This document shows, one piece after another, positions 3,407 through 16,072 of a DNA stretch of 23,570 nt. Source of the DNA: Labilithrix sp. (GTDB taxonomy: Bacteria; Myxococcota; Polyangia; Polyangiales; Polyangiaceae); NCBI GenBank assembly GCA_028287035.1, contig JAQBQL010000033.1, positions 1 to 23,570 on the forward strand, read 5' to 3'. Under the pieces are notes generated by a model that saw nothing but the letters and a program-made list of their open reading frames with translations, was not told the origin of the DNA and ran no database searches. The translations under genes were made by a program, and so were the position numbers. How positions within the stretch are numbered: position 1 is the stretch's first letter; the number at the start of each line of letters is the position of its first letter.

Positions 3407-5932
3407 ATGCATGCCCCGCCGCCCAGCCGAGAGCCTGAACCGAGAGGTCGGCCGGGCGCGCGTGCCGGGTCCGGCTTCGCGGAGCCCCGTCCGACGTTGG
3501 GCGACCGCGTCCGTGACCTGAGGGACCGGGCAGCCGGCGCGCTCGAGCGCGTGCCGAGGCCGTGGCTCCTCGGCGCCGTGGCGGTGGTTCTCCTCGTCGT
3601 GGTGGCGGCGCTCGCCTCGTTCGGGCCGCTGGTTCGCGGGCGCGTCGCGAAGGAGGCCGCGAAGCGCCGCCTCGAGATCACCGTCGGCGCCGTGCGCCCC
3701 GGCTTCTTCGCGATCGGGCTGGAGGACGTCCGCGTTCGACTCCAGGGGGTCGAGGGGCTCGACGTCCGCCTCGAGCACGTTCGGGTCGAGCTGACCGCCA
3801 GCCTCTCGCCGCGGGAGGTCGCGGCCAAGGGCGGGGCGGTCACCGTCGACGGCGAGCCAGAGGACGTGGTCGAGCGCCTGCGCACCTTCCAGAAGAACGG
3901 AAAGACCGAGGGCTCCGCGCCCGCCGCGGGCCCCCGCGTCCCGCTTTCCGCGAAGGAGCTCGCGCTCGCGTGGAAGATGCCGTCCGGCGGAGAGATCACC
4001 GGCAGCGGCCTCGAGGTCGCGCGCGACGAGGGCGGCACGCAGCTCGGCTGCGGCCGGATCGCCGCGTCGGTGCAGCGGTCGACGCTCGAGGTGCTCGGGG
4101 GCGTCGTCGACCTCGCGCCCGACGGAGCGGTCCGTCACGTGACGGCGGCCTCGGTCACGGTCGGTCGTGAGCTCGCGCCGGGCAAGCCTGCTGCCGCTGC
4201 GCTGCCCGGGAGCGCCGCCGAGCCCGTGCCTCCGCCGCTGCCCGCCGCCGCGCCGCGGGACCTACGCGCCGGGAAGAAGGGCCGCGCGAAGGTGGTCGCC
4301 GCCGCTGCACCCGCCGCAGCGCCCGTGTCCGACGAGCCCGTGCTGCCGCTCCCCGATCTCCACGCCCTCCGCGCCAGGATCGCGGGGCTCGCGCAGGCAT
4401 TCCTGGCGCGCGTGCCCGACGGGAGCAAGTTCGACATCGGCGGCCTCGCCGTGAAGCTCGACATCGGCGGCGAGCCCTTCGCGTTCGGCCCCGGTCCGTT
4501 CACCATGAACCGCCAGGGCGACGTCGTCCGCCTCTCCTTCGCAAGCGAGAAGGGCGGGGCAGCGCAGTCGACCCCCCTCGCGATCGAGGCGGAGCTTCCG
4601 CTCGGCCAGGGCGACGTGAGCGCGCACCTCTCGGGCGGTCCGGTGTCGCTCGGCATGCTCGGCGTCAAGGAGGGCACGAAGGGCCTCTTCGACGTCGCGA
4701 AGGGCACCGTCTCCGGCAAGGGGCTGCTCGTTCTCGCGGCGGCGGGCGACGGGCTCACCTTCGACGGCCAGATCGCCCTCGCGCAGATCTCGATCAAGCA
4801 GCCGCGTCTCTCGGCAGAGCCGCTCCGCGGCCTCGATCTCGCGATCAGCGCGCGCGGGTTGCTGAACGACGGGGGGCTCCTTCGCGTCGACGACGCGCAG
4901 CTCGACATGGGCGCCCTGCACGTCCGGACGCATGGCACGCTCGAGGAGAGCGCCGATCACTTCGGCCTCGCGCTCGCGGTCGACATCGCGCCCGCGTCCT
5001 GCCAGGCGCTGCTCGACAGCACCCCGCAGGGTCTCCTGCCCACCGTCCGCTCGGCGCGCATGGGGGGCACCTTCGGGGCGACCTCGCGCGTCGTCTTCGA
5101 CACTCGGTCCATCGACAAGCTGGTGCTCGACTACGCCGTCGATGACCGCTGCCGGCTCGTGGAGGTTCCGCCCGACCTGTCGCGCGACCGGTTCTCGTCG
5201 AGCTTCACGTACCGCACGTACCACCCGGACGGCACGCCGAGCGAGACGACCACGGGGCCCGGCACGTCCGCATGGTCGGACCTCGACAGCATCAGCCCGT
5301 ACATGATGGCCGCCGTGCTCACGACCGAGGACGGCGCCTTCTACAAGCACCACGGCTTCAATCACAACGCGATCAAGAGCAGCGTCGCGGCGAACCTCAA
5401 GGCGCGCCGCTTCGTTCGCGGCGCCAGCACCATCACGATGCAGCTGTCGAAGAATCTCTTCCTCTCGCGCGAGAAGACGCTCTCGCGGAAGCTCGAGGAG
5501 ATCATCCTGACCGACTACCTCGAACAGGAGTTCCGGAAGGACGACATGATGGAGCTCTATCTGAACGTCATCGAGTTCGGGCCCGACGTGTACGGGGTCA
5601 CCCGCGCCGCCGAGCACTACTTCGGACGCAAGCCGGACGAGCTGAACGAGGCGGAGTGCTTCTTCCTCGCCTCGATCATGCCGTCGCCGAACCGGTACGG
5701 GAAGATGCGGGACAAGGGGCAGATCTCGGAAGGCTGGCAGAGCCACCTCGCGAAGCTCATGGAGATCGCCGCGAAGAACCACAAGCTCTCGAGCGCCGAG
5801 CTCGCCGAGGGCCTCGCGCAGACGGTCACGTTCTACCGGCCGGGCGACCCGCGACCCGAGCCGCGCCGTCCCGTGATCAACAACCGGCGCGACGCCTACG
5901 AAGAAGACGCGGGCTGGCAGCCGCTCGACTAG
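3407..5932 (+). CDS. Membrane-anchored AsmA-like/peptidoglycan glycosyltransferase (GT51) fusion
   Basis: This 841-aa protein has a short basic cytoplasmic N-terminus and one transmembrane helix (about 53-73). A long region (about 75-600) follows, made of short amphipathic beta-type repeats ('LEDVRVRLQGVEGLDVRLEHVRVEL' style) resembling AsmA/TamB-type periplasmic bridges and interrupted by an Ala/Pro-rich stretch (about 260-310). The C-terminal 230 residues are a GT51 lipid II glycosyltransferase: motif 1 EDGAFYKHHGF with the catalytic Glu at 641, motif 2 GASTITMQLSKN at 672-683, motif 3 SRKLEEI with the second conserved Glu, and motif 4 ELYLNVIEFG. No transpeptidase domain follows, so it would polymerise glycan strands but not crosslink them. 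Motif 2 has Met where most family members have Gln (STITQQ). Its stop codon directly abuts that of tadA on the other strand. Confidence 0.88.
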   Translation: MHAPPPSREPEPRGRPGARAGSGFAEPRPTLGDRVRDLRDRAAGALERVPRPWLLGAVAVVLLVVVAALASFGPLVRGRVAKEAAKRRLEITVGAVRPGFFAIGLEDVRVRLQGVEGLDVRLEHVRVELTASLSPREVAAKGGAVTVDGEPEDVVERLRTFQKNGKTEGSAPAAGPRVPLSAKELALAWKMPSGGEITGSGLEVARDEGGTQLGCGRIAASVQRSTLEVLGGVVDLAPDGAVRHVTAASVTVGRELAPGKPAAAALPGSAAEPVPPPLPAAAPRDLRAGKKGRAKVVAAAAPAAAPVSDEPVLPLPDLHALRARIAGLAQAFLARVPDGSKFDIGGLAVKLDIGGEPFAFGPGPFTMNRQGDVVRLSFASEKGGAAQSTPLAIEAELPLGQGDVSAHLSGGPVSLGMLGVKEGTKGLFDVAKGTVSGKGLLVLAAAGDGLTFDGQIALAQISIKQPRLSAEPLRGLDLAISARGLLNDGGLLRVDDAQLDMGALHVRTHGTLEESADHFGLALAVDIAPASCQALLDSTPQGLLPTVRSARMGGTFGATSRVVFDTRSIDKLVLDYAVDDRCRLVEVPPDLSRDRFSSSFTYRTYHPDGTPSETTTGPGTSAWSDLDSISPYMMAAVLTTEDGAFYKHHGFNHNAIKSSVAANLKARRFVRGASTITMQLSKNLFLSREKTLSRKLEEIILTDYLEQEFRKDDMMELYLNVIEFGPDVYGVTRAAEHYFGRKPDELNEAECFFLASIMPSPNRYGKMRDKGQISEGWQSHLAKLMEIAAKNHKLSSAELAEGLAQTVTFYRPGDPRPEPRRPVINNRRDAYEEDAGWQPLD

Positions 5933-6397: not shown

Positions 6398-6414
6398 GGC
6401 GGTTCGTGTCTTTG

Positions 6415-6488
6415 CGCGCCCGGGAAGATTCGAACTTCCGACCCTTGGTTCCGTAGACCAATGCTCTATCCAGCTGAGCTACGGGCGC
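6415..6488 (-). tRNA. tRNA-Arg (anticodon ACG)
   Basis: The minus strand folds into a complete 74-nt cloverleaf. The acceptor stem is GCGCCCG paired with CGGGCGC, with discriminator G. The D arm is GCTC-AGCTGGATA-GAGC. The anticodon stem TTGGT/ACCAA closes the 7-nt loop CTACGGA, so positions 34-36 read ACG. The T arm is GGAAG-TTCGAAT-CTTCC. CCA is not encoded (the genome continues CAAA). A34 makes this the expected TadA substrate, and tadA is the next gene downstream. Confidence 0.96.
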
Positions 6489-7081: not shown

Positions 7082-7960
7082 ATGGCGCGCGCATTCCTGA
7101 GGGCGGTCGGCTTCGGCGGAGCGGTGTTGCTCGCCGGGGCGACGAGCCGTGCCGGGGAGCCGACGGGCCCGACCGTCGCGCAGCTGCTCGTCGGTCCGCC
7201 GTGGCTCGGCGTGTCGATGGACAAGGGCGGCGACATCGGGGTCACGGTCCAGCACGTCGTGCGCGGCTCGCCTGCAGACCGTTCCGGCATCCAGTCGGGC
7301 GACCGCATCGTCGCGCTCGACGGCGCGCGGATCACCGATCCGTCGCAGGTCACCCGGGGCGTCGGCACGCATCGCGTCGGCGACGCGGTGAAGGTCGACA
7401 TCGAGCGGCGCGGCGCGGCCTCCACCGCCTCGGTCACGCTTGCCGCGCGTCCCTCGGGCGATGCCATCCTCAGGATGGACCTGGTGGGCGCTCCCGCTCC
7501 CGCATGGACCAACGTCTCGGTCCTGTCGGGCGCGCCGTCGTCGATGGAGAACCTGCGCGGCCGCGTCGTGCTCCTCGATTTCTGGGCCTCGTGGTGCGGT
7601 CCGTGCCGGGCCCTCGCGCCGCGGCTGAGCGCGCTGAAGGACAAGTACGGCGCGCAGGGGCTCTCCGTCGTCGGCATCACCACCGACGATGCGGAGAAGG
7701 CGGCGCTCTTCGCGGAGCGTGCCCAGATGCGTTACGGCGTCGTGGTCGACGCGAACGGCGACACGAGCCGCGCCTACGGCGTGAGCGCCCTTCCGACGAT
7801 GCTCGTCGTCGACAAGAAGGGCATCGTGCGCGAGGTGTTCATCGGGTTCGACCCGTCGGGCGAGGGCCAGGTGGAGACGGTGCTGAAGGCGCTCCTCGCC
7901 GAGCCGGCGCCGCCGCCGGGGCCGCACACGCCGCAGGCCCAGCGCCCACCGGGACGCTGA
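7082..7960 (+). CDS. Exported PDZ-thioredoxin (TlpA/ResA-like) protein
   Basis: This 292-aa protein has an N-terminal signal sequence (MARAFLRAVGFGGAVLLAGATSRA, cleaved before about residue 25). A PDZ domain follows (about 41-123, with WLGVSM, GSPADRSGIQSGDRIVALDG), then a TlpA-type thioredoxin domain (about 137-270). The redox motif WASWCGPC places the active cysteines at 172 and 175, and the cis-Pro loop ALPTM is present, as is the TlpA-typical VVGITTDD insertion. The C-terminal 20 residues are Pro-rich. It should act as a periplasmic disulfide oxidoreductase, with the PDZ domain perhaps recruiting a client. The next gene starts 1 bp after its stop, so the two are very likely translated together. 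Confidence 0.88.
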   Translation: MARAFLRAVGFGGAVLLAGATSRAGEPTGPTVAQLLVGPPWLGVSMDKGGDIGVTVQHVVRGSPADRSGIQSGDRIVALDGARITDPSQVTRGVGTHRVGDAVKVDIERRGAASTASVTLAARPSGDAILRMDLVGAPAPAWTNVSVLSGAPSSMENLRGRVVLLDFWASWCGPCRALAPRLSALKDKYGAQGLSVVGITTDDAEKAALFAERAQMRYGVVVDANGDTSRAYGVSALPTMLVVDKKGIVREVFIGFDPSGEGQVETVLKALLAEPAPPPGPHTPQAQRPPGR

Positions 7961-12737: not shown

Positions 12738-13391
12738 TCACTCGAGGCGCGTCACCTGCCGGCCTCGGGCGGTCGCGATCGAGGCGAGCAGATCGGCGAG
12801 CTTCTTGTCGTCGGCGACGCGCGGGAGCTTGTCGTACTCCCCGTTCCAGAGCTCCAGCATCACTCCCGCGTTGTCGACGACCACGCGGTCGACCTGCGCC
12901 CAGGTGTAGCGCTTCACCTTGGGGAAGCCGGCGAGCAGCGTGCGGGACTCGATCGCGTCGCCGGTCACGACGACGCCACGAAGCGCGTTCTTGATCACGT
13001 TCCCGATGGCCGCGAAGAGGATGATGAACGCGAGCGGACCGGACCCGAACACGCGGTGCCGATCGCCCTCGACCACCCAGACGTACAGGCGCGAGTTCGA
13101 TGACCCGTAGTAGGCCGCGAGCACGCTGAGCCCGATGCAGGCGGCAAACACGAGGAACAGGTACCCGGGGATGCGCGAGAGGAGCGGCGGCCCGAACGCG
13201 AAGCGCTCGTTCCGCGCCGGGCTGTAGGCCATCTCGAACTTGGCGATCGAGCCGTTCACGTCGGTGATCGAAGGACGATCGCCCTCGTCGGCAGTCTCGA
13301 TCACGCCGGCGAGCTCGTGGGAGCCCGACGTGGTGGAGCGGACGGTCGGGGCGGGCGGGGCTGACGTGGTGCGAGGCTCGGTCACGACCAT
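12738..13391 (-). CDS. Membrane protein with PH-like domain, unknown function
   Basis: This 217-aa protein has a Pro/Thr/Ser-rich N-terminus (about 1-55) and two hydrophobic helices (about 75-94 and 116-135). The C-terminal segment RGVVVTGDAIESR, KVKRYTWAQVDRVVVDNAGVMLELWNGEYDKLP resembles the bacterial PH-like domain found in two-helix membrane proteins. The start at 13391 has a reasonable Shine-Dalgarno (GGAGAG) just upstream. It converges on the TonB-dependent receptor with 13 bp between stops and follows the GAF/EI-like gene on the same strand after 64 bp. No enzymatic motif is visible, and the PH assignment rests on pattern only. Confidence 0.65.
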   Translation of the reverse strand: MVVTEPRTTSAPPAPTVRSTTSGSHELAGVIETADEGDRPSITDVNGSIAKFEMAYSPARNERFAFGPPLLSRIPGYLFLVFAACIGLSVLAAYYGSSNSRLYVWVVEGDRHRVFGSGPLAFIILFAAIGNVIKNALRGVVVTGDAIESRTLLAGFPKVKRYTWAQVDRVVVDNAGVMLELWNGEYDKLPRVADDKKLADLLASIATARGRQVTRLE

Positions 13392-13455: not shown

Positions 13456-14775
13456 TCAGTCTACGCCTTCCTGCGTGCGGCGGTACTCGCGGAGCGCCGC
13501 GACCTCGCCCTTCGACGGATTGATGACGAGCAGGCCGTGATCGGCATCGACGAGCGCGACGTCACCGTCGGACGCCCAGCGGAAGAGCCCCTCCACGCCG
13601 ACCACCGCCGGGACGTCGAAGAGACGGAGCAGCGTGCGCGTGCGTGGCCCGCCGCCGCGGTCGGTAAGCGCGACGCCGACCGGATGCGCGCGCGCCGAGA
13701 TGAGCAGATCGAACACGCTCAGCGTGTCGCCGACGAGGATCGCCTTCGTGGGCAGCTCGGCGCGCTTGTCGGCGACCGCGAGCATGACGAGGGCGTCGCA
13801 CAGGTCCTCGACGTCGCGCGCGCGCTCCTCGAGGAAGGCGTCCCGCGAGACGGAGGCGGCGGTGCGTGTCACCTCGCGCGTCACCCGGCTGAGCGCGGCG
13901 GGGATCCCGGTGCGACCCTCGAGGAGCTCGTCGGCGCGCTCGCGAAACCGCGCGTCGCCCAGGATCTCGACGTACGTGGCGAGGAACGCCGCCTCGGAGC
14001 CGATCTCCATCTTCCGCGCGCGGTCGGCGAGCGCGCGGATCGCCTTGTCGGCGACGTCGAATGCGCCGCGCAGCAGGCGGCGATCCTCGCGGACGTCGGT
14101 CTCGGGCCGGGGCTCGCTGGGGCGGGCGGCCGGCCGGCGGAGCGCGGCGATGGCGCCGATCGCGCGGCCGCCGACGAAGGGGCGACCGGTCAACGTCACC
14201 TTGCGCGTGCCCCCGCCGGCCTTGCGGGCGAGCGGCCGTTCGCGGCGCGCGTCGATGAGCTCGGCGTGGCGGACGCCGGCGCCGATGATCGCCCCGAGCG
14301 CGGTGAGCAGCTCGATGTCGCGCTCGTCGAACGCGCTCCGGGCGCGCTGCACGACGAGCGCGCCGGAGGGGCCCGCCTTGCCGCGAACGGGCACCGCGAG
14401 GAACACCGGATAGCGCTCCTCGTCCAGGACGGAGAACGGCTTGTACGCGGCGTCGTGCGGAGCGTGATCGCTCGTGACCGGCCGGAGGTACTCGACCGCC
14501 TCGCCGGTCATCCCCTCGCCGATCTGCAGCCGCACCTGCCCGATCGCGGCCGACGAGAAGCCGACGTTTCCGCGCATGACGAGCTCGTGGCCGTCGCCCT
14601 CGACGAGGTAGAGCGAGCACACGTCGGCGCCGAAGATCGCGGCGATGCGCCGGGGCGCCTCGTCGAGGAGCGTGACGAGCGGCATCGGCTTCGCCGCGAA
14701 CGTCGCGAAGTCGAGGACGCCATCGAGCCTCGGGTTGCCACGTCCGTGAACCTTCGTGTGCGGGTCGTCGGACAT
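13456..14775 (-). CDS. Truncated EI(Ntr)-like protein: GAF + EI N-domain + swivelling domain without the active His
   Basis: This 439-aa protein resembles the front part of PtsP (Enzyme I of the nitrogen PTS). An N-terminal GAF domain (about 17-180: CSLYLVEGDGHELVMRGNVGFS, QIGEGMTGEAVE, PVRGKAGPSGALVV) is followed by an EI-type HPr-binding/N-domain (about 195-320, with the signature FLEERARDVEDLCDALV). A phosphohistidine swivelling domain comes next (about 325-425: ILVGDTLSVFDL, PAVVGVEG, VALVDADHGLLVINPS). The C-terminal PEP-binding barrel (about 250 aa) is absent. The usual GGxTSHxAI motif reads GGGPRTRTLL, putting Arg378 where the phosphorylated His should be. It therefore cannot be a normal PEP phosphotransferase and is probably a sensor or regulator. 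A good ribosome site (GGGGGT) precedes the ATG at 14775. The reading frame is intact, so it does not look like a decaying gene. Confidence 0.82.
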   Translation of the reverse strand: MSDDPHTKVHGRGNPRLDGVLDFATFAAKPMPLVTLLDEAPRRIAAIFGADVCSLYLVEGDGHELVMRGNVGFSSAAIGQVRLQIGEGMTGEAVEYLRPVTSDHAPHDAAYKPFSVLDEERYPVFLAVPVRGKAGPSGALVVQRARSAFDERDIELLTALGAIIGAGVRHAELIDARRERPLARKAGGGTRKVTLTGRPFVGGRAIGAIAALRRPAARPSEPRPETDVREDRRLLRGAFDVADKAIRALADRARKMEIGSEAAFLATYVEILGDARFRERADELLEGRTGIPAALSRVTREVTRTAASVSRDAFLEERARDVEDLCDALVMLAVADKRAELPTKAILVGDTLSVFDLLISARAHPVGVALTDRGGGPRTRTLLRLFDVPAVVGVEGLFRWASDGDVALVDADHGLLVINPSKGEVAALREYRRTQEGVD

Positions 14776-14859: not shown

Positions 14860-15288
14860 GTGACCATCGACTTTCCCTCGACCGCGTGGACGGCCGCTTA
14901 CAAGGACGCCATCAACGCCAACCCGGAATACAAGAAGGCGGGGAAGGACTGGACGCACGGCGCCGTCGCCATGGTGGTCAAGGCCGAGCCTTCGCTCGAT
15001 CTTCCGGAAGACCTTGCGATGGTGCTCGACGTTCACCAGGGCGAGTGCCGGTCGTGCACGCTGGCGCCCGCGAAGGAGGCCGAGGAGACGGCGCCCTTCG
15101 TGATCGTGGCGAGCTACGCCCAGTGGAAGCAGGTCATCAAGAAGGAGATCGACCCGACGAAGGCTCTGATGCAGGGCAAGTTGAAGCTGACCAAGGGTCA
15201 CATGCCCACGATGGTCAAGCACGTCAACGCATCGAAGCAGCTCGTGGAATCGACCTCGCGCGTGCCGACCAAGTTCCGCGGGGAGTGA
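14860..15288 (+). CDS. SCP2 sterol-binding-fold protein
   Basis: This small soluble protein of 142 aa has the SCP2 (sterol carrier protein 2-like) pattern: an N-terminal helical part (AWTAAYKDAINANPEYKKAGKDW), beta strands AVAMVVKAEPSLDL and LAMVLDVHQGECRSCTL, then FVIVASYAQWKQVIKKEIDPTKALMQGKLKLTKGH, whose 'W..v..g..dp..ai..G.lk..Gd' pattern is the family hallmark. The GTG at 14860 was chosen as the start because GAGGAG lies just before it and the protein then begins at the usual point. It probably binds a hydrophobic ligand such as a lipid or acyl-CoA. It is divergent from the EI-like gene. Confidence 0.8.
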   Translation: MTIDFPSTAWTAAYKDAINANPEYKKAGKDWTHGAVAMVVKAEPSLDLPEDLAMVLDVHQGECRSCTLAPAKEAEETAPFVIVASYAQWKQVIKKEIDPTKALMQGKLKLTKGHMPTMVKHVNASKQLVESTSRVPTKFRGE

Positions 15289-15364: not shown

Positions 15365-16072
15365 ATGGCTACCTCCGCCCCGCTCGTGCTCGTCGCCGAC
15401 GACGAGCCCTCGATGCTCGAGCTCGTCGCGCGCCACCTGCGCACGATGTCCGGTCCGAAGCTCGAGGTCATCATCGCTTCCGACGGTGAGGAGGCGTGGC
15501 GCCAGGCCCGCGAGCATCTGCCCGATCTCGTCGTCCTCGACGTGATGATGCCGGGCATGAGCGGCTGGGAGGTCTGTCGCAAGATCCGCGAGGACGTCGC
15601 GCTCGCGCACACCGGCGTCGTGATGCTCACGGGCATCGGCGAGAACCTGAACCAGATGACGAGCCCGCTCTACGGCGCGGACGCGTACATCGACAAGCCG
15701 TTCGAGTTCGACGACTTCGACGACAAGATCCGCGAGACGCTCGCCTCCCGCAGCAAGCAGCGCGACGGCGTGGTCCGTCCGTCGATGAACGGCACGACCG
15801 CCGCGGCCAAGCCGGCAGCAGGCGACGAGCCGGCGCCGGCGCGGTCCGCGAAGAAGAAGAAGGCGGCGCCCGCCAAGAAGAAGGCGGCGCCCGCGAAGAA
15901 GAAGGCGGCGCCCGCGAAGAAGAAGGCAGCGCCCGCCAAGAAGAAGGCAGCGCCCGCGAAGAAGAAGGCAGCGCCCGCCAAGAAGAAGGCAGCGCCCACC
16001 AAGAAGAAGGCAGCGCCCGCGAAGAAGAAGGCGGCGCCCGCGAAGAAGAAGGCAGCGCCGAAGAAGAAGTGA
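15365..16072 (+). CDS. Response regulator receiver domain with histone-H1-like lysine-repeat tail
   Basis: This 235-aa protein starts with a complete receiver (REC) domain (about 5-130): acidic pair Asp12-Asp13, phosphoacceptor Asp59 in LVVLDVMMPGMSG, the switch Thr in VVMLTG, and the conserved Lys in YIDKPFEF. A short Ala/Pro-rich linker leads into a tail of ten KKKAAP(A) units ending in KKK, closely resembling the C-terminal domain of histone H1 and bacterial H1-like proteins that bind DNA non-specifically. There is no conventional output domain such as winged helix, LytTR or GGDEF. The tail is likely to bind DNA, RNA or acidic polymers, with phosphorylation of the receiver as the control; that is inference. 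No histidine kinase lies nearby. The cytochrome gene starts 1 bp after the stop. Confidence 0.9.
   Translation: MATSAPLVLVADDEPSMLELVARHLRTMSGPKLEVIIASDGEEAWRQAREHLPDLVVLDVMMPGMSGWEVCRKIREDVALAHTGVVMLTGIGENLNQMTSPLYGADAYIDKPFEFDDFDDKIRETLASRSKQRDGVVRPSMNGTTAAAKPAAGDEPAPARSAKKKKAAPAKKKAAPAKKKAAPAKKKAAPAKKKAAPAKKKAAPAKKKAAPTKKKAAPAKKKAAPAKKKAAPKKK
15854..16069 (+). repeat. Tandem 21-bp repeats encoding KKKAAPA
   Basis: Ten in-frame units of 21 bp (7 codons, aagaagaaggcngcgcccgcn) run from 15854, followed by a last AAG triplet set. Copies differ mainly at silent positions (gcg/gca, gcc/gcg). One unit carries Thr instead of the final Ala, and the last is shortened to KKKAAP. Such a tract can expand or contract by slippage while keeping the frame. 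Confidence 0.95.

Follow-up and report, generated by a model that had tools for sequence, protein, structure and literature searches.

Barrel-less, histidine-less GAF–enzyme I proteins form a conserved myxococcotal lineage of candidate HPr-docking regulators

The window analysed in this work is the whole of a 23,570-nucleotide stretch of a Labilithrix sp. contig (JAQBQL010000033.1). On its reverse strand, positions 13456-14775 encode a 439-residue protein that we call psEI, a name used here for any protein with a GAF domain and an enzyme I N-domain (EIN) that has neither the barrel nor the phospho-histidine of enzyme I (EI). Re-reading the sequence bore out the open reading frame, coordinates and strand given in a preliminary description of this locus, together with its motif GGGPRTRTLL and Arg378 (codon 13642-13644(-)), the residue equivalent to the phospho-histidine, His189, of E. 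coli PtsI. The GAF domain covers residues 35-166 (14278-14673(-)), is a clear Pfam match (GAF_2, 54.5 bits) and is the sole domain type that Pfam found ahead of EIN. The EI N-domain, at residues 197-318 (13822-14187(-)), is likewise a clear match (PEP-utilisers_N, 46.8 bits) and contains most of the helical HPr-docking subdomain. On the docking face lie Asp274 and Arg276 (13948-13956(-)), at E. coli PtsI positions 82 and 84, and Arg318 (13822-13824(-)), which corresponds to Arg126 of E. coli PtsI. All three domains had been described as intact. This holds for the GAF domain and the EI N-domain, but is too strong for the degenerate swivelling (mobile) domain at residues 344-414 (13534-13746(-)), because its PF00391 score of 17.7 bits is under the cut-off of 23.1. 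The swivelling domain also contains Trp400 (13576-13578(-)), a signature of psEI, and the frame does stop after it, only 25 residues beyond the PF00391 match.

What is missing from psEI was sought both in the protein and around it. Pfam found no PEP barrel (PF02896) in the protein, and tblastn with four EI C-terminal queries (E<=1) found no match to the EI C-terminal part anywhere in the window. Thus the adjacent barrel fragment that the preliminary description had named as counter-evidence does not lie there. The best NCBIfam model for psEI is PtsP (PRK11061), which aligned as far as model position 408 of 748 and scored 88.6 bits, without reaching the cut-off of 583. That cut-off is strict for this phylum, since two full-length GAF-EI proteins from the class surveyed below fall short of it as well (442.6 and 446.5 bits). 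The structure model of psEI is moderate (pLDDT 73, pTM 0.45), with values under 50 for the linker and for part of the swivelling domain. Its top Foldseek matches are PtsP GAF domains (3trc and 3ci6_A, TMt 0.89). For EIN, the match is to EIN-Ntr (5t12), with a TMt of 0.59 and an rmsd of 11.2, and the arrangement of the subdomains is therefore poorly fixed. The linker RKAGGGTRKVTLTGR...ALRRP (residues 184-215, 14131-14226(-)) is modelled with low confidence.

Immediately downstream of psEI, 64 bases away and on the same strand, lies a gene for a 217-residue membrane-anchored protein (12738-13391(-)), here termed bPH-like. It has two predicted transmembrane helices followed by a PH-like fold (model pLDDT 79), as in the bPH-domain membrane proteins of Pfam families bPH_7 and bPH_6. 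The sequence matches are weak, with bPH_7 matching eight of 14 bPH-like members (best E 0.00067) and leaving the window's own member unmatched. The top Foldseek matches of the model are also weak (best E 0.0028) and include CARMIL, Pob3, SSRP1 and GRK2, which contain PH domains. In the opposite direction, an SCP2-like sterol-carrier protein gene (14860-15288(+); PF02036, 33.3 bits), possibly starting with GTG at 14860, diverges from psEI across 84 bases. Elsewhere in the window are a tRNA-Arg(ACG) (6414-6488(-)); a response regulator receiver domain with an AAPAKKK-type tail (15365-16072(+)), the tail being coded by 9.9 copies of a 21-base unit at 15853-16059; a gene that joins a PDZ domain to a thioredoxin-like AhpC/TSA domain (7082-7960(+)); and an 841-residue protein (3407-5932(+)) with a transglycosylase domain at residues 619-782 only, the first 600 residues of which match no Pfam family at E<=0.001.

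The unusual layout of psEI is a family trait. A protein search returned 990 hits, the best 120 of which are 434-501 residues long and 72-88% identical to the query. Several of those 120 are called PtsP or come from Labilithrix, and 'phosphotransferase system enzyme I (PtsP)' and 'Phosphocarrier protein kinase/phosphorylase' are among the labels of the listed hits. Arginine occupies the histidine position in 121 of 121 sequences when the query is aligned with these best 120 of the 990 hits. Furthermore, comparison with two close loci gave dN/dS values (Nei-Gojobori) of 0.105/0.74 and 0.09/0.651, or about 0.14 each, which indicates purifying selection. Scanning genome contigs yielded 30 loci. 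Of these, 22 encode psEI, down to 50% identity, and carry the titles Myxococcales, Myxococcota, Polyangiaceae, Labilithrix or, in two cases, deltaproteobacteria; the remaining eight have EI or EI-like proteins of other kinds, in which the C-terminal part is long. We conclude that psEI is a conserved lineage of soil-bacterial proteins and not the product of a frameshift, chance or an assembly error, and the pseudoenzyme lineage proposed in the preliminary description is real.

Within one myxococcotal class (that of G009), 134 of 240 genomes match the psEI family profile at E<=1e-10, and at least 84 of the 240 encode a barrel-less GAF-EIN protein. These 84 comprise 83 complete copies and one cut by a contig end (G022), and they are a lower bound, as scoring was limited to seven candidates in each genome and the loci fetched were a subset of the matches. 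Genome G002 has a second psEI (L199, 2412-3230(+)), cut by a contig end and 85% identical to that of the window over residues 1-273, which may be a strain mixture or a duplicate. For alignment we assembled 97 complete psEI sequences: that of the window, those from 21 of the 22 contig loci (L022 is cut at its contig end), 21 of L084-L113 (nine were dropped because their genomes had already been counted) and 54 of L114-L178 (six full-length GAF-EI proteins were dropped, as were L126, L141, L156, L170 and L178, which are split or incomplete). The 97 fall into a near group of 47 (the window's clade), a mid group of nine and a distant group of 41. The preliminary description had pointed to orthologues with the histidine and the barrel as the result that would speak for a recent error; none of the 97 is of this kind. 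Full-length GAF-EI proteins with the histidine and a barrel-length tail do occur in six other genomes of the class. No psEI was found in those six genomes, so no genome has both forms. Mutual exclusion of the two forms was considered and set aside, as only about two co-occurrences would be expected by chance and the difference from zero is not significant.

Histidine is absent from all 97 complete psEI sequences, both at the lost phosphorylation site and within three alignment columns of it, and no other residue there is common to the family. In the same alignment it is present in all 25 full-length EIs (6/6 GAF-EI and 19/19 PtsI, two contig-cut PtsI being excluded). Across the 97, the site holds R in 48, A in 17, L in 11, G in 6, P in 6, S in 3, M in 2, V in 2, T in 1 and C in 1. 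The preliminary description had proposed a check of whether Arg378 is conserved among orthologues. It is conserved in the near clade (Arg in 45 of 47, Met in the other two) but not across the family: arginine and serine each occur in three of the nine mid sequences, and among the 41 distant ones the residue is Ala in 16, Leu in 11, Pro in six, Gly in five and a different one in the rest, although the alignment of the distant sequences around this site is uncertain position by position. We therefore reject the idea that arginine is a family-wide working substitute for histidine. Since the residue varies and is never histidine, the loss of the histidine goes with the loss of the barrel, and arginine is a clade-specific state. 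Trp400 is found in 95 of the 97 psEI sequences and in none of the 27 full-length EIs aligned with them.

In a tree of 56 sequences, the 36 psEI proteins sampled from the 97 are monophyletic (UFBoot 94, both for EIN alone and for GAF plus EIN), and they group with the GAF-bearing EIs and not with PtsI (UFBoot 86 for EIN, 72 for GAF plus EIN). An earlier study (PMC2405797) describes the GAF-bearing EI-Ntr proteins as monophyletic, a Geobacter protein being among them. The simplest reading of the tree is that psEI arose once, by loss, from an EI-Ntr-like ancestor; support for the grouping is moderate. Like EI-Ntr (PtsP), psEI has a GAF domain followed by EIN, and the fold of its GAF domain is nearest to those of PtsP, but it has neither the phospho-histidine in the GGxTSH-type motif nor the PEP barrel. 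It also has equivalents of the EIN docking residues D82 and R126 of PtsI, from which it differs in the same two losses: all 19 aligned PtsI copies have the histidine, and all 19 uncut copies extend 577-605 residues from the start of EIN, the barrel being confirmed in the one copy scanned. E. coli DhaM (472 residues) demonstrates that a barrel-less EIN can exist, because it too stops after EIN and the swivelling part. However, DhaM retains the histidine (SHSALIAREL) where the psEI of the window has arginine, and it has EIIA and HPr domains where psEI has GAF. No description of a GAF-EIN protein lacking both histidine and barrel was found in the literature searched, which is weak evidence of novelty as subscription papers lay mostly outside the search.

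Both the sensor and the docking half of psEI are under constraint. The GAF residues S54, Y56, G72, G88, P129 and Q143 are identical in all 97 psEI proteins, in 6/6 full-length GAF-EI proteins and in E. coli PtsP. In the helical subdomain, position 274 is Asp in 96 of the 97, 276 is Arg in 94 and 318 is Arg in 91; these three, with L325 and C326, are the positions conserved in at least 86 of the 97, and four of the five match residues of the EIN:HPr interface as listed in PMC3724859. That list has 28 positions and derives from a modelled complex; its numbering was mapped to E. coli by offsets, with positions 104 and 108 approximate. Judged by this list, entropy is lower at interface positions than elsewhere in the helical subdomain, both across all 97 sequences (1.73 versus 2.45 bits, Mann-Whitney p 0.0002) and in the near 47 (0.96 versus 1.61 bits, p 0.0023). 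Circular shifts of the list reached the observed conservation in 0 of 110 cases for all 97 and for the distant 41, in two of 110 for the near 47 and in six of 110 for the mid nine. The same control on active enzymes gave 21 of 110 for 19 PtsI and two of 110 for 27 full-length EIs. The signal may thus partly reflect the fold and not binding, as active EIs also show the pattern, less sharply.

The face is not unchanged, however. In the near 47, L115 of E. coli has become Ala in 47/47, Y122 Phe in 46/47 and G75 Thr in 42/47; among the 41 distant sequences, Pro prevails at position 115 and position 122 is variable. Glutamate is not retained in psEI at E67 and E74, which are salt-bridge residues in E. 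coli. The suggestion that psEI preserves an HPr-binding-like domain is borne out in part: within the helical subdomain conservation is highest at the docking positions, but L115, Y122, E67 and E74 have changed. Arg276, which replaces Glu84 of E. coli PtsI, was considered as a disproof of HPr docking and rejected, as E. coli PtsP also has arginine there. Nor need docking end with the loss of the histidine, because an EIN mutant with aspartate in its place had unchanged affinity for HPr, as reported in PMC3724859.

Candidate partners, for which the preliminary description had proposed to look, are encoded in the genomes of relatives. Among 22 genomes of close relatives with psEI, HPr was found in 21, PtsI in 21 (19 full-length, those of G013 and G015 cut by contig ends, and none in G016), HPrK in 22 and an EIIA_2 (EIIA-Ntr-type) domain in 22; EIIA-Man was found in none of the 22. 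HPr retains GLHAR in 21/21. In all 21 relatives with both proteins HPr adjoins PtsI on the same contig, and the distance to the EIN match never exceeds 273 bases, too short a space for these PtsI to include a GAF domain; in the window, no PTS-HPr match was found among the 18 open reading frames scanned. On contigs that carry several of these genes, they run in the order ptsN-hprK-ptsH-ptsI, with rapZ identified by Pfam in G016 only. Across the class, HPr is present in 218 of 240 genomes and in 80 of the 84 with psEI. It went undetected in G016, G195, G210 and G250 (the last assigned by elimination from the list of 218), and as HPr kinase is also undetected in three of these four, a missing contig is possible; completeness values are not given for the surveyed genomes. 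Two further kinds of relay-like gene were noted: a 530-residue EI-like protein with an atypical TSH motif and an EI C-terminal match, distinct from PtsI and psEI (G017, L198, 1330-2922(-)), and a second, diverged HPr close to an EIIA_2 domain in G012 (L205 and L082) and G011 (L083), with an EI-like stretch in L205.

Taken together, the parts kept and lost suggest, tentatively and with a little under an even chance by our estimate, that psEI proteins are phosphorylation-dead descendants of a GAF-bearing EI (EI-Ntr/PtsP) that act as ligand-sensing, HPr-docking regulators. Holding a partner is probable, rather than chemistry, because the parts that load and pass phosphate are gone while a sensor and the surface that grips the carrier have been kept. 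For ligand-gated holding of HPr, we draw also on the affinity of the His-to-Asp mutant (PMC3724859) and on the finding in PMC4848567 that glutamine inhibits autophosphorylation of EI-Ntr and that mutation of GAF abolishes this inhibition.

A reading that we regard as quite possible, if doubtful on balance, is that the partner has been switched, so that psEI would be a GAF-ligand sensor whose EIN serves as a scaffold for some other protein, perhaps the bPH-like protein in the near clade, with HPr uninvolved. A bPH-like homologue lies directly downstream of psEI in 19 of the 22 contig loci, the hydrophobic part of the docking face has changed, and a basic linker motif, GT[RK][RK]V, is present in 47/47 near and 7/9 mid sequences and in 0/41 distant ones, 0/6 full-length GAF-EI and 0/19 PtsI (0/25 full-length EIs). 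Moreover, psEI is retained in the four genomes without detectable HPr. In one of these, G016 (L196), the contig with ptsN, hprK and rapZ continues into a 5'-nucleotidase gene and lacks ptsH and ptsI, yet psEI and its bPH-like neighbour remain. No other single observation weighs as much against HPr as the partner, although G016 is a metagenome-assembled genome (MAG); its HPr kinase match is weaker (1.4e-35) than those of the 21 relatives (1.9e-59 or better). Against a switched partner stand the presence of HPr in nearly all psEI genomes and the fact that the docking positions are the best conserved even in distant psEI, downstream of which no bPH-like gene was found. The bPH-like linkage does not extend beyond the near clade (34 of the 110 locus rows, counting duplicates). 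The SCP2-like gene is divergent from psEI in 17 of the 22 contig loci. A search for other conserved neighbours of distant psEI gave none that was clear, shadow open reading frames of the high-GC DNA swamping the clustering.

It is improbable that the target is instead PtsI, which psEI would contact through its GAF or EIN half and dampen, with no holding of HPr. PtsI does accompany psEI in 21 of the 22 genomes searched, and EI works as a dimer. However, EI dimerizes through the barrel that psEI lacks, and in the relatives the HPr and EIN matches are at most 91 codons apart, which is not enough to encode a GAF domain, so GAF-GAF pairing with their PtsI is unavailable. Phosphorylation of psEI at another residue, with onward transfer, is very improbable: no evidence in its favour was found, and there is neither a PEP-binding barrel nor a nearby histidine or shared residue at the lost site. 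Finally, the losses and the degenerate swivelling domain might suggest a decaying remnant or an assembly error, a reading that can hardly be right given the site common to all 121 near sequences, the low dN/dS and the number of genomes with psEI; a frameshift or an adjacent barrel fragment was rejected as the layout is family-wide and the window has no barrel.

If psEI is indeed an HPr-docking regulator, its GAF domain would most likely bind a small metabolite that reports nitrogen or carbon status, and occupancy of GAF would decide if HPr, or one of its phospho-forms, docks on the EIN face. Docked HPr would be withheld, with psEI competing with the ordinary PtsI of the genome; alternatively, psEI may hold HPr near the membrane, beside the bPH-like protein of the next gene. 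It is possible, though we would not yet lean towards it, that this describes a class-wide pseudoenzyme of the phosphotransferase system (PTS), in which a GAF-gated EIN captures HPr and so converts a metabolite signal into the size of the free HPr pool, with a bPH-like partner bringing this to the membrane in the near clade.

In summary, the homologues annotated as PtsP or as phosphocarrier kinase/phosphorylase do not have the parts needed for that activity. As the docking positions have been retained while the catalytic parts have been lost, the holding of HPr is directly testable. If true, psEI would regulate a bacterial phosphorelay by holding the carrier and not by kinase or phosphatase action, and if psEI proteins do hold HPr, the myxobacterial phosphorelay would have a non-catalytic sensor arm.
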